Positions 37,101 to 41,965 of a stretch of DNA of 60,383 nucleotides are shown here, in pieces. Numbering within the stretch: the stretch's first letter is position 1; every line of letters starts with the position of its first letter. Position numbers and translations under genes: made by a program. This DNA is from Armatimonadota bacterium (GTDB lineage Bacteria > Armatimonadota > Fimbriimonadia > Fimbriimonadales > GBS-DC), in the NCBI GenBank assembly GCA_023511915.1, contig JAIMAN010000009.1, positions 1-60,383 of the forward strand. The letters are read 5' to 3'. Under the pieces are notes generated by a model. The model saw nothing but the letters and a program-made list of their open reading frames with translations, ran no database searches and was not told the origin of the DNA.

Positions 37101-40100
37101 TTATGGCAACGGCAACTTCGGGCGCGGCTCGAAGTCGGGCAGCTTCGGCGGGTTTGCCTCCATCAACTTGAGAATCTCCGCAATCGCCCGATCCAGCTGC
37201 GGGTCGCGCCCCGCCATGTAGTCCTGCGGCGCGTAGTCCACCTCGATGTCGGGATCCGTGCCGTAGTTTTCCACGCGCCAGCCGACATCGTAGAACCAGA
37301 AGGCATACTCGGGCTGCGTGGTCAGCCCCTGATCGACAAACACCGACTTTGGCGAGATGCCAATCACGCCGCCCCAAGTGCGCTTGCCGATTAGCGAACC
37401 CTGCTTCATCAGCTTGAAGGCGTGGCTGAACATGTCGCCGTCGGAGCCCGCGCGCTCGTCGGTAATCGCGACCAGCGGTCCCATCGGCGAGTCGTAGGGG
37501 TAGGGCATCGGCTTGCCCCAGCGCGGCACATCGTAGCCGATGCGCTTGCGCCCCAGCTTCTCCAGCAGCAGCGCGGACACATACCCGCCGCCGTTCGCCC
37601 GCACATCCACAATCAGCCCTTGACGCACCAGCTCAGGCAGAAATGCGCGGTGGAACTCCGAGAAGCCGGGGCTGCCCATATCGGGGATGTGGATGTAGCC
37701 GACCTGCCCGTTGGTCTTCTCGTGAACATAGGCGCGGTTGCGGTTTACCCAGTCGCGATAGCGCAGTTTCGATTCGTCGCTCAGCGTTTTGGTGGTCACG
37801 GTGCGCGTCTGTCCGTCGGGGCTGCGCAGGGTCAGTTGCACGACCGCGCCCGCTTGGTGCAGCAGCGCCTCGCTGGGGGTGAACTCGCGCGTGAGGCGTC
37901 GCCCGTTGATCGCCAGCAGCGCCTCGCCGACTTTCGCGTTCACGCCAGGCTCGTTCAGGGGCGAGTCGGCGTCGTCCAGCCACGGGTCGCCCGTGAGGAT
38001 GCGCGTGATGCGGTAGCCCTGCGTCGCCTCGTCCCACTCGAACTCCGCGCCCAGCAGCCCGACCGAGTATTGCGGGGGCTGGCGGTAGTCGCCGCCGAAC
38101 TCGTAGCAGTGCGAAGTGCCCAGCTCGCCCTGCATCTCCCACATCAGGTCGGAGAACTCGCCGCGCGTGGCGACGCGCTCCAGCAGCGGGTAGTAGCGGT
38201 CGTACACGCGCTGCCAGTCGACGCCCGACATGTCCGCGCTCCAGAAAAACTCGCGTTGCAGTCGCCACGCCTCGCGGTACATCTGCTGCCACTCGCGGGT
38301 GGGCACGACCGCGCAGCGCACGCGGCTGAGGTCAATCCAGCCGCTCTCGCGCGACGGGGGCGCGCTCTCGTGCTTCTCGTCGGGCTTTTGACCTGCGGGC
38401 AGCACGCGCAGCCGCTTGCCCGACCGATACGCCAGCGTCTTGCCGTCCAGCGACAGCGTGAAGTCGTTCACCTTGCTTGCCAGCGTCTCGGTCTTGGCGT
38501 TGATGAAGTCGTACATCAGCAGCGCGCCTTTGCCCTCGCCGTCCTCGCCCAGCCAGTCTTTGCCGAGCGTGCCTTCGACGGGGAACTGCGTCGCCAGCAC
38601 GCGCCGCTTGCTCAGCCCCGCGACCTGCCCGTAGATGCCTGCAGGCAACGGCACGGTAATCACACGCAGCTGGATGTCGTCGAAGTCGATGACGGTGGTC
38701 TTTTTCTCGCCCGATTCCTGCTTGCCCTCCTCCTTCGGTTTCTCCTCAAACGGGCGGGGCTGGGGTAGCAGCGGGTTCGGGATGTCTTTGCGCAGCACGA
38801 CCGCCATCACACGCATGCCCATCGGGAACGCCAGCTCGTACTGCAGGTTGTCGGGCACGGGGTCGTAGTCGCGATAGGACAGGAAGTACAGCATCTCGCC
38901 GTCGGGGTCCCACGCGGGCGACACATCGCGGAACTCTGGGTGCGTGATGGGGTGGATTGCGCCCGTTTCTGCGTCGTAAATCTTGATGATGTGTGTGCGC
39001 TCGTTGGGGGCGAAGCTGTACGCCAGCCAGCGTCCGCACGGCGACCACGCGAAGCCTGCAATCCAAGCGCTATCGCTGCGCTCAATCAGTTTCAGCGCGC
39101 CCGTCACAACATCGAACAGGGACAGCTCGAAGCGGTGATTGCTGAGGGCAACGCGGTCGGCGGTGGGGCAGACCGCCATCTGGTAGGGGTGCCCGATGTC
39201 CAGCGTTTCGTAGCGCGTGACGCCGTCGGGGGTGTGCAGTTCCAGTCGGGGTTCGCCGCTGGCGTCGGAGACGGTGATTATGCGTTCGCCGTCGGGCAGG
39301 AACTGGCTCAGGCGGTAGCGCACGCCCTGCGGCTCGCCGTGCTGAATCACCGCGCCTTCCCAGTTGCCCATCACAAACGGCTTGCCCCGCACGGTCAGCA
39401 GCAGCGAGTGCCCCTGCGGGTGCAGCCCGTACTCCTGCAGGTACTTGTCGGTCTCGACGAACTTGCGTTGCGCTTGTGTGCGCGGGCTGCGCAGTTCTAC
39501 GGGAATCATCTGATCCTCGCCTGTCGCCAAGTCCAGCACATACAGGTCTGCGCCCGCGTGGTAGACGATGCGCTTGCCGTCCGTGCTGGGGTAGCGCACA
39601 TAGTATTCGGTGTGGTGGGTGTGCTTGCGCAGGTCGCTTCCGTCGGGCAGGCAGGAGTAGATGTTGGCGATGCCCTCGTGGTCGGAGACGAAGTAGATGC
39701 GCTCGCCAATCCACATCGGCGCGGTCAGGTTGCCGTCGGTGGGCTTGAAGCGGGTGAAGTTGCCGTCGCCCGTGCGGTCGATCCAGAACACGCCCGCTGT
39801 GCCGCCACGATAGCGTTTCCACCACGCGGGGTCGCCCGTGTGTCTCCCCAAGATGACCGCGCCGTTGGCTCCAAAACTGATGTGCTGCGCCAGTCCGTAG
39901 GGGTACCGTTGGGGCAGTCCGCCGTCCAGCGGCGCGCGCCACAGCCAGATTTCGCGTGGCGGGCACGCAGCGGTGCTGGCGTAGATGACCGACTTGCCGT
40001 CGGGCGTCCAGCCGACCACCTGCACGCGCGTTGCCGCTTGGTAGGTCAGTCGGCGTGGCTCGCCGCCGTCGGCGGGCATCACATACACTTCGGGCTGCCC

Positions 40101-40394
40101 CTCATCGCGGGCGACGAAGGCAATCCACTGCCCGTCAGGCGAGAAGCGCGGGGTGATGACATTGCTGAGGCTGGTGGTCAGGCGGCGCGCGTAGCCCCCG
40201 CCCACCGAAACCGTCCACAGGTCGTCTTCGCAGGTGAACGCCACCGTATCGCCGTGAATCGTCGGAAAGCGGTAGTAGCCCTTACGCATCGTCGGTCTCT
40301 CCGAGTGCGTGGGATTCGGCGCACCAGCGTCGATTCCTGCTGGGGCGGTTGCCAGCGTCAGCGCGCCCAGCAGACACAGGCTCAGTTTTCGCAA
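37101..40394 (-). CDS. Tricorn-type protease (S41 core with beta-propellers)
   Basis: 1097 residues in the longest form. Tricorn homologues cut short peptides downstream of larger proteases. Order: beta-propeller repeats (about 40-650; FSPDGQWIAFVARD, WSPCGRWLAYSF), then PDZ and S41 peptidase modules with His in GTSHCYEFGG (about 762), FSEFHRAFLPEL and the nucleophile Ser in RAGSDGDMFSHAF (about 985). The TTG at 40394 gives a signal-peptide-like start (LCLLGALTLATAPAG). The ATG at 40289 (MRKGYYRFPTIHGD) has GGAGAG 8 bases upstream and a two-part promoter motif ahead, so a cytoplasmic form may also be made. Confidence 0.88.
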   Translation of the reverse strand: MRKLSLCLLGALTLATAPAGIDAGAPNPTHSERPTMRKGYYRFPTIHGDTVAFTCEDDLWTVSVGGGYARRLTTSLSNVITPRFSPDGQWIAFVARDEGQPEVYVMPADGGEPRRLTYQAATRVQVVGWTPDGKSVIYASTAACPPREIWLWRAPLDGGLPQRYPYGLAQHISFGANGAVILGRHTGDPAWWKRYRGGTAGVFWIDRTGDGNFTRFKPTDGNLTAPMWIGERIYFVSDHEGIANIYSCLPDGSDLRKHTHHTEYYVRYPSTDGKRIVYHAGADLYVLDLATGEDQMIPVELRSPRTQAQRKFVETDKYLQEYGLHPQGHSLLLTVRGKPFVMGNWEGAVIQHGEPQGVRYRLSQFLPDGERIITVSDASGEPRLELHTPDGVTRYETLDIGHPYQMAVCPTADRVALSNHRFELSLFDVVTGALKLIERSDSAWIAGFAWSPCGRWLAYSFAPNERTHIIKIYDAETGAIHPITHPEFRDVSPAWDPDGEMLYFLSYRDYDPVPDNLQYELAFPMGMRVMAVVLRKDIPNPLLPQPRPFEEKPKEEGKQESGEKKTTVIDFDDIQLRVITVPLPAGIYGQVAGLSKRRVLATQFPVEGTLGKDWLGEDGEGKGALLMYDFINAKTETLASKVNDFTLSLDGKTLAYRSGKRLRVLPAGQKPDEKHESAPPSRESGWIDLSRVRCAVVPTREWQQMYREAWRLQREFFWSADMSGVDWQRVYDRYYPLLERVATRGEFSDLMWEMQGELGTSHCYEFGGDYRQPPQYSVGLLGAEFEWDEATQGYRITRILTGDPWLDDADSPLNEPGVNAKVGEALLAINGRRLTREFTPSEALLHQAGAVVQLTLRSPDGQTRTVTTKTLSDESKLRYRDWVNRNRAYVHEKTNGQVGYIHIPDMGSPGFSEFHRAFLPELVRQGLIVDVRANGGGYVSALLLEKLGRKRIGYDVPRWGKPMPYPYDSPMGPLVAITDERAGSDGDMFSHAFKLMKQGSLIGKRTWGGVIGISPKSVFVDQGLTTQPEYAFWFYDVGWRVENYGTDPDIEVDYAPQDYMAGRDPQLDRAIAEILKLMEANPPKLPDFEPRPKLPLP
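40315..40338 (-). promoter_or_regulatory. Two-part AGGAA-N15-CGAA motif inside the Tricorn signal-peptide region
   Basis: GCAGGAATCG then CGAATC after 15 bases, 25 bases before the internal ATG at 40289 and its GGAGAG site. Confidence 0.5.
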
Positions 40395-40403
40395 TTGGTA
40401 TCA

Positions 40404-40871
40404 CTACTCCTCGCTCAGGGGGCGCAGGTAGGCGATGGGTTGCCCATACTGCACGGGCTGCCCCGATTCGACCGCCCAGCCCTCCAAGATGGCGGGCAGC
40501 GGCGCGGTCACCTCGTTGGCGATGCCCAGCACCTCGACGGTCGCCAGCGTCTGCCCGCGCTCGACGGACGCGCCCACCGCAATCGGCGCGAGCGTGCAGT
40601 AGCCGACGCATTCGGAGCGCACTTCCAGCAGCGCAGGCGGCTGCCACAGGCTCTCTGGCTCGGCGTCGGGCGTAGGTTCGGGCGTTGCGTAGCCGCTCAC
40701 GAACAGGGGGGGCATCGCCTCATCAGGCGTCGGTGGCGCGCCCGCGCCCTGCGCCCGTGTCAGGGCAATCTGCCACGCGCCGTCGCTGAGTTCTAAGCGC
40801 GTCGCGCCGTGATGCGCCATAAGTTGCGCCAGTTGCTCCACTTGCACCAACGCTTCGTTCACCATTTCCAT
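40404..40871 (-). CDS. Biotin-carboxyl-carrier-like protein lacking the biotinylated lysine
   Basis: 155 residues laid out like AccB: an N-terminal helical region (VEQLAQLMAHHGATRLEL), a Pro/Ala/Glu linker, and a C-terminal biotinyl-lipoyl barrel (about 83-155). Where real carriers have EAMKMMNEI, this reads EVLGIANEV, so the attachment lysine is glycine (residue 116) and both flanking methionines are lost. It cannot carry biotin or lipoate. In plants, similar lysine-less BADC proteins join acetyl-CoA carboxylase and hold it back; that role here is only a hypothesis. The start overlaps the upstream gene by 13 bases. Confidence 0.8.
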   Translation of the reverse strand: MEMVNEALVQVEQLAQLMAHHGATRLELSDGAWQIALTRAQGAGAPPTPDEAMPPLFVSGYATPEPTPDAEPESLWQPPALLEVRSECVGYCTLAPIAVGASVERGQTLATVEVLGIANEVTAPLPAILEGWAVESGQPVQYGQPIAYLRPLSEE

Positions 40872-41965
40872 TTGAACACCACCGTCTCTACTGTGCGTAG
40901 CGCGTAGCTCAGCACGACAATCACCAGCGCGATATACAGCACCAGCGCGGCAGCCTCGCTGGTCTGCGCGGCGGCTTTCAGCACGCCCTCGCGCGCCTCG
41001 CTGGGCATCAGCGTGAACCGCGCCAGCAGCGAGTCGAGCACGCCCAGCAGGTTCAGCACCTGCGCCTGCAACGGCTCGCGGAAGAAGTAGGCGACCCCAA
41101 TCACCGTGCCGACGGTCAGCGGCGCAAACAGCTGGTACTTTTGCCGCTGATGCTCGTTGTAGATCACGCACTCGTTGCAGCGTTGCTTCAGTTCCCACTT
41201 GCTGAGCGTCGTGTTGTGGGGGATGTATTTGGCGTTCTTTTCGGGGTCGTCGCTGACGCGCACATCCTTGAGCGCGAGCGCGATGTTTTTCTCCTCGCAC
41301 ATGCAGCCGACGCCCTCGCGCCAGCAGGTGCGCCGCGCGTGATAAATCGGACATCGCTCGCGCACATAGTCGCGACAGTAGGGCAGTTGCCAGCATTTGC
41401 CCAGAAACCGCTGGGGAACTTGCTGCTTGCTGACCTCCGCGCCGAGTTTGAGCGTCTGATCCATCCCCGCGCCGTAGCGCAGCCGCTTAATCGCGTGCGA
41501 CAGGCTCACAAACACGGTCAGCACCAGCCCTGGCGGGAACAGCACCCACGCGGCGTTGCGGATGCGCGTAAGCGCGAAGTCGCCCAGCGTGTTCGGGTTC
41601 GGCAGCGTGCTGACCTGCCCAATCAGCAGCGGCAGCCCCCAATAAAACAGCGCGGCGGCAATCAGCAGCGCGACCCCGACCAGCGGCTCTTCCAAGTAGT
41701 TCCACGCCAGCCCAATCACGATAAAGCCCGCGCCCAGCAGCAGCGCGTTGCCCGCCAGACCCAAGTTATCGCGAATGCGCGCCTGGTCTTGCGGCGTGAA
41801 ACTCTGCCCGTCAAGATTAGCGAACAGCAAGGCGTACAGCAGGTACACCAACCCCAGCACGAACAGGATCGCGCCCGCACTCATTAGCCACTGCGTGACG
41901 GTCGTGATCCAGCGCAGCATGAGTTGGCGCTGATACTCCTGCTGTATCGACGGTCGTTTGGACAT
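40859..41965 (-). CDS. Membrane protein with an eight-cysteine cytoplasmic or external cluster
   Basis: 368 residues, no family I can name. Four N-terminal membrane helices (about 25-48, 68-88, 95-116, 138-158), then a hydrophilic cysteine domain: Cys191, 197, 205, 214, 221 and 223 (CWQLPYCRDYVRERCPIY, then CWREGVGCMC) plus Cys263 and 266 (RCNEC), spacing suited to zinc or an iron-sulfur cluster. Two further helices follow (about 282-300 and 340-362). It is first in a unit with the lysine-less BCCP-like gene and Tricorn. The ATG has GGGGAG upstream. Confidence 0.7.
   Translation of the reverse strand: MSKRPSIQQEYQRQLMLRWITTVTQWLMSAGAILFVLGLVYLLYALLFANLDGQSFTPQDQARIRDNLGLAGNALLLGAGFIVIGLAWNYLEEPLVGVALLIAAALFYWGLPLLIGQVSTLPNPNTLGDFALTRIRNAAWVLFPPGLVLTVFVSLSHAIKRLRYGAGMDQTLKLGAEVSKQQVPQRFLGKCWQLPYCRDYVRERCPIYHARRTCWREGVGCMCEEKNIALALKDVRVSDDPEKNAKYIPHNTTLSKWELKQRCNECVIYNEHQRQKYQLFAPLTVGTVIGVAYFFREPLQAQVLNLLGVLDSLLARFTLMPSEAREGVLKAAAQTSEAAALVLYIALVIVVLSYALRTVETVVFKWKW

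Follow-up and report, generated by a model that had tools for sequence, protein, structure and literature searches.

In plants, the biotin attachment domain-containing proteins BADC1-3 bind BC and BCCP and have been reported both as an inhibitor and as an assembly 'glue' (PMC11926652, PMC7712654). The 'glue' function concerns the BC-BCCP pair (PMC11926652), while the inhibition is favored in the dark and passes through BC, in an enzyme that CTI proteins dock at the membrane (PMC7712654); whether BADC inhibits or assembles the plant enzyme is disputed. According to PMC11926652, only the plant enzyme has BADC. A literature search that left most subscription papers outside its scope yielded no description of a lysine-less BCCP from bacteria. 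Small 'glue' subunits of some bacterial acyl-CoA carboxylases, cited in PMC11926652, are non-catalytic and proposed to act in holoenzyme assembly. The protein considered here, designated AccB', resembles them, by their description, as a putative non-catalytic assembly subunit and differs in being a BCCP paralogue of an acetyl-CoA carboxylase with separate subunits. AccB' is encoded in the window, i.e., the whole stretch of 60,383 nucleotides analyzed, which belongs to a Fimbriimonadales MAG (Armatimonadota). Judging from sequence, it is reasonably probable that AccB' belongs, as a non-catalytic subunit, to the heteromeric acetyl-CoA carboxylase, the enzyme with which fatty acid synthesis begins; it would bind AccC, AccB, or both and adjust how the enzyme assembles or how active it is, perhaps at the membrane.

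Like plant BADC, AccB' is derived from BCCP, lacks the biotinylated lysine and accompanies a true BCCP, alongside BC and CT, in a heteromeric carboxylase system; unlike BADC, it is bacterial, has a short thumb and is encoded in the same operon as accC and the gene of a membrane protein that is polytopic, has eight cysteines and is also unlike plant CTI. With the bacterial AccB/BCCP (TIGR00531, E. coli 4HR7), it shares the N-terminal AccB domain, the linker, the biotinyl barrel and a position before accC, but glycine replaces the biotin lysine and the thumb is short, the VG motif and the loop being mostly 24-27 residues apart, compared with 32 in all measurable normal AccB.

The accB' gene occupies positions 40404-40871 on the minus strand, with an ATG at 40871 and a stop ending at 40404, and encodes 155 amino acids comprising the N-terminal AccB domain (residues ~1-40), a Pro/Glu-rich linker (~43-80) and the biotinyl barrel (~81-150). 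As the preliminary description had stated, the EAMK-type loop is replaced: the ORF and the family alignment place EVLGIANE at residues 113-120 (40512-40535, minus strand), with Gly116 at the lysine position. The Pfam model Biotin_lipoyl matches with 26.3 bits, its cut-off being 22.1, and the best NCBIfam match is the BCCP model TIGR00531 (E 5.6e-9, residues 10-148), against whose curated cut-off of 115.2 bits AccB' scores 36.6 and the true AccB of the same genome, also below it, 86.7. When the AccB' family profile (A1) was compared with all PDB chains, the top match was the complete E. coli BCCP in 4HR7, a BC-BCCP complex, aligned end-to-end (E 2.5e-24; profile positions 3-135) with the N-terminal AccB domain kept. 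The retention of the barrel, likewise claimed beforehand, is upheld by structure prediction, since the AF2 model does show a barrel that is fairly confident over residues 91-150 (pLDDT ~71-84), the linker being outside the model, and Foldseek matches this model to BCCP barrels with a target TM of 0.73-0.82, including E. coli 1bdo and 4hr7 and Arabidopsis BCCP1 9a87. Within the linker, which otherwise evolves fast, the motifs PPLF-S-Y and WQPPA (40635-40712, minus strand) show no variation within the genus and resemble short binding motifs.

Not a single lysine is found in the 155 residues of the window's AccB', which leaves no attachment site for biotin or lipoate. While the barrel has the same fold as that of carriers and would suit a protein in which some other residue bears biotin or lipoate, this complete absence of lysine, which extends to 8 of 13 relatives examined in the family, leads us to reject an alternative modified lysine and makes a carrier modified in another manner highly improbable. 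Without its lysine AccB' cannot be a working carrier, and a separate one is present. The genuine accB, which the preliminary description proposed to look for, lies in the same assembly (G000:C19) and has the loop IEAMKVFNE and a full thumb, by which the idea that AccB' is the only AccB of the genome is dismissed. The assembly also contains an acetyl-CoA-carboxylase-type accC on C63, arranged as pstB-accC-nusB, a second biotin carboxylase, different in type, on C24, and accD on C54.

Profile searches over 291 Armatimonadota genomes, followed by reading of the loci, indicate that two AccBs coexist well beyond this genome. In the genomes read, also outside Fimbriimonadales, a short-thumb AccB' is encoded in the operon and a thumbed AccB elsewhere, and the two are separated with 99* support in one tree. 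The lysine is kept in all 46 normal AccB read. It is missing from all 97 AccB' read in Fimbriimonadales (96 with Gly, one with Thr), a sample that covers part of the genomes of the order and leaves out weaker matches, among them some of genera g11 and g27. Outside the order, AccB' retains lysine in 33 cases (a first count plus 13 further cases from additional loci) and has G, R, T, S, or D in 17, which implies that the lysine was lost repeatedly; many of the lysine-bearing forms may be ordinary carriers. The AccC tree requires no fewer than five changes between lysine and other residues, or 7-9 losses by hand count if lysine was never regained. Such changes separate even close relatives, e.g., the sister genera g95 and g96, with the loops EVMKVPN and EAMRVPN, or three members of genus g131, with K (G237), S (G238), and T (G239) at this position. 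In the tree without plant sequences, the nearest relatives of the lysine-less proteins are lysine-bearing AccB' of the same phylum; for this reason an origin independent of plant BADC is favored and appears most likely. As far as can be judged, AccB' would work like BADC, probably as a counterpart and not as a member of its family.

AccB' is under purifying selection. Among 11 members of the genus, dN/dS over the whole protein amounts to 0.16; the barrel has the lowest value (0.097), followed by the N-terminal domain (~0.17; 0.168) and the linker (0.31). These values are approximate because dS is ~1. The VLGI-NEV of the loop is invariant in all 11. The loss of the catalytic lysine and of the thumb is what would be seen in a functionless, degenerating copy of accB, yet all 97 AccB' read in the order are intact, the altered loop is invariant in the genus, and the same lysine was lost several times with the remainder of the protein retained. 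Conservation and dN/dS together refute the pseudogene reading, which has next to no probability left. The preliminary description is supported in part: a BADC-like role, in the sense of a non-biotinylated BCCP paralogue that acts on the heteromeric carboxylase, has good support from the descent of the protein, the ancestral accB'-accC operon, a separate lysine-bearing accB, and purifying selection, whereas inhibition of the enzyme and binding to AccC are putative.

In bacteria, efp-accB-accC is the usual arrangement. In the Fimbriimonadales loci, it is the lysine-less copy that occupies this place, the lysine-bearing accB being found elsewhere, often beside a homoserine dehydrogenase gene. The ancestral order reads efp, the gene of the 8-Cys membrane protein, accB', a prepilin-like gene, accC, nusB, and folD, and this operon, with a homologous lysine-less gene and short overlaps at the junctions, is found in other Fimbriimonadales families. 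In 15 of the 21 in-order loci, accB' lies directly upstream of the prepilin-like gene, accC, and nusB/folD, and it adjoins accC in nearly all of the out-of-order loci read; AccC motifs are present in family f19. Orthologues of the window's AccB' occur throughout the genus and family, and a contig scan of genomes gave matches to close relatives only. The operon has been split in two ways: in family f3, efp and the membrane gene are apart from accB', the prepilin-like gene, and accC, whereas in the window's genus the membrane gene and accB' stay together and accC is elsewhere (C63). Since G015, of the same family as the window's genome, retains every gene of the operon from efp through nusB, the operon is ancestral to the window's arrangement.

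The prepilin-like gene that separates accB' from accC in the majority of Armatimonadota loci (L052:8373-8732, L051:7668-8027, L103:4109-4570, and others) encodes a protein of ~120 amino acids with a conserved C-terminal stretch, CPxGxEPYxY...TGxVxCxHPGHExY. A pilin-like gene within accBC is odd; in the window's genus it is not adjacent to accB'. There, the gene downstream of accB' (37101-40394, minus strand) encodes a Tricorn-like protease with PD40 repeats, Tricorn_C1, PDZ_Tricorn, and Peptidase_S41 domains. Tricorn, correctly named beforehand as a neighbor, is one only in the window's genus; in other families accB' is followed by the prepilin-like gene and then accC; Tricorn is outside the conserved gene set and is rejected as a partner of AccB'.

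The other neighbor named beforehand, a cysteine-rich membrane protein, has a genuine link to AccB' that is conserved throughout Armatimonadota. Its gene (40859-41965, minus strand) encodes a polytopic protein of 368 amino acids with about five hydrophobic segments, and its 3' end lies 13 nt inside accB', an overlap conserved in the window and seven relatives that makes translational coupling of the two genes likely. The eight cysteines (191, 197, 205, 214, 221, 223, 263, and 266) are invariant in 24 of 24 relatives and form two CW motifs, a CP, a C-x-C, and a terminal RC-x2-C. No Pfam or NCBIfam model matches the protein and its AF2 model is poor (mean pLDDT 46); for a possible 'two-CW' resemblance, the literature search found no paper. 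In the Fimbriimonadales loci read, the gene lies beside efp or accB', with the exception of G016. The protein is found in 20 of the 23 genomes searched, also where the gene is unlinked, and is missing from precisely the three without AccB'. This co-occurrence, together with the pairing that accB' and the membrane gene kept in the window's genus after both had parted from accC, would fit an AccB' that has left the carboxylase and serves the membrane protein as a barrel-sandwich adaptor or as a soluble domain in trans. However, in family f3 it is with accC that accB' remained, the membrane gene staying with efp, and AccB' retains its N-terminal AccB domain, so that such a departure from the carboxylase seems unlikely.

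For AccB' as a carboxylase subunit, the following mechanism can be envisaged. AccB' derives from a duplicate of AccB located in the ancestral operon (efp, membrane gene, accB', prepilin-like gene, accC). Its N-terminal domain would mix with that of the real AccB, and its barrel would dock on AccC but present no biotin. AccB' would then either help to hold the AccC-AccB subcomplex together or occupy carrier sites and lower turnover. In the weakest step, the co-translated 8-Cys membrane protein might anchor the complex at the membrane or supply a redox or metal signal. It counts against a carboxylase subunit that accB' is unlinked from accC in the window's genus and that the short thumb removes a feature by which plant BCCP contacts BADC. 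The former also counts against a protein mainly regulating accBC expression. In E. coli, the N-terminal region of AccB autoregulates accBC, and if the first place in the operon is held by a copy without biotin, such control could be independent of biotin status; the location of accB' upstream of accC and the retained N-terminal domain would agree with this. Nevertheless, it is the barrel and not the N-terminal domain that is the most constrained part of AccB' (0.097 vs 0.168), and a mainly regulatory function is considered improbable.

A broader proposal, possible though put forward tentatively, is that a whole bacterial phylum operates its heteromeric acetyl-CoA carboxylase with two different BCCPs. 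One of them would have given up biotin several times and turned into a structural or inhibitory subunit of the BADC kind, coupled to the 8-Cys membrane protein with which it is co-translated; if so, fatty acid synthesis might be brought to the membrane, or under redox or metal control, by the latter. With regard to the debate on BADC, a bacterial counterpart beside accC, with close relatives bearing K, R, or G and a single genus bearing K, S, and T, would provide a natural series for studying the function of biotin-less BCCPs. A further suggestion is that acetyl-CoA carboxylase has more than once come to be built or controlled by means of a non-catalytic BCCP, and a lead is gained on an unnamed family of membrane proteins that is conserved phylum-wide.

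The three genomes without AccB' (G017, G054, and G055) lack the operon-type AccC as well as the membrane protein, and their AccC-like matches group with the second biotin carboxylase. As G054 and G055 are additionally devoid of AccB and AccD, the whole system was lost together in these two, and the co-loss of AccB' and AccC rests on this one clear event. G017 keeps AccB and AccD, and its absences may correspond to an assembly gap. G054 and G055 (L259, L260, L268, L269) represent a reduced Fimbriimonadales genus of 1.5 Mb, about 97% complete, with no recognisable AccB, AccB', operon-type AccC, or AccD, in which malonyl-CoA is perhaps made by a PCC-type carboxylase.
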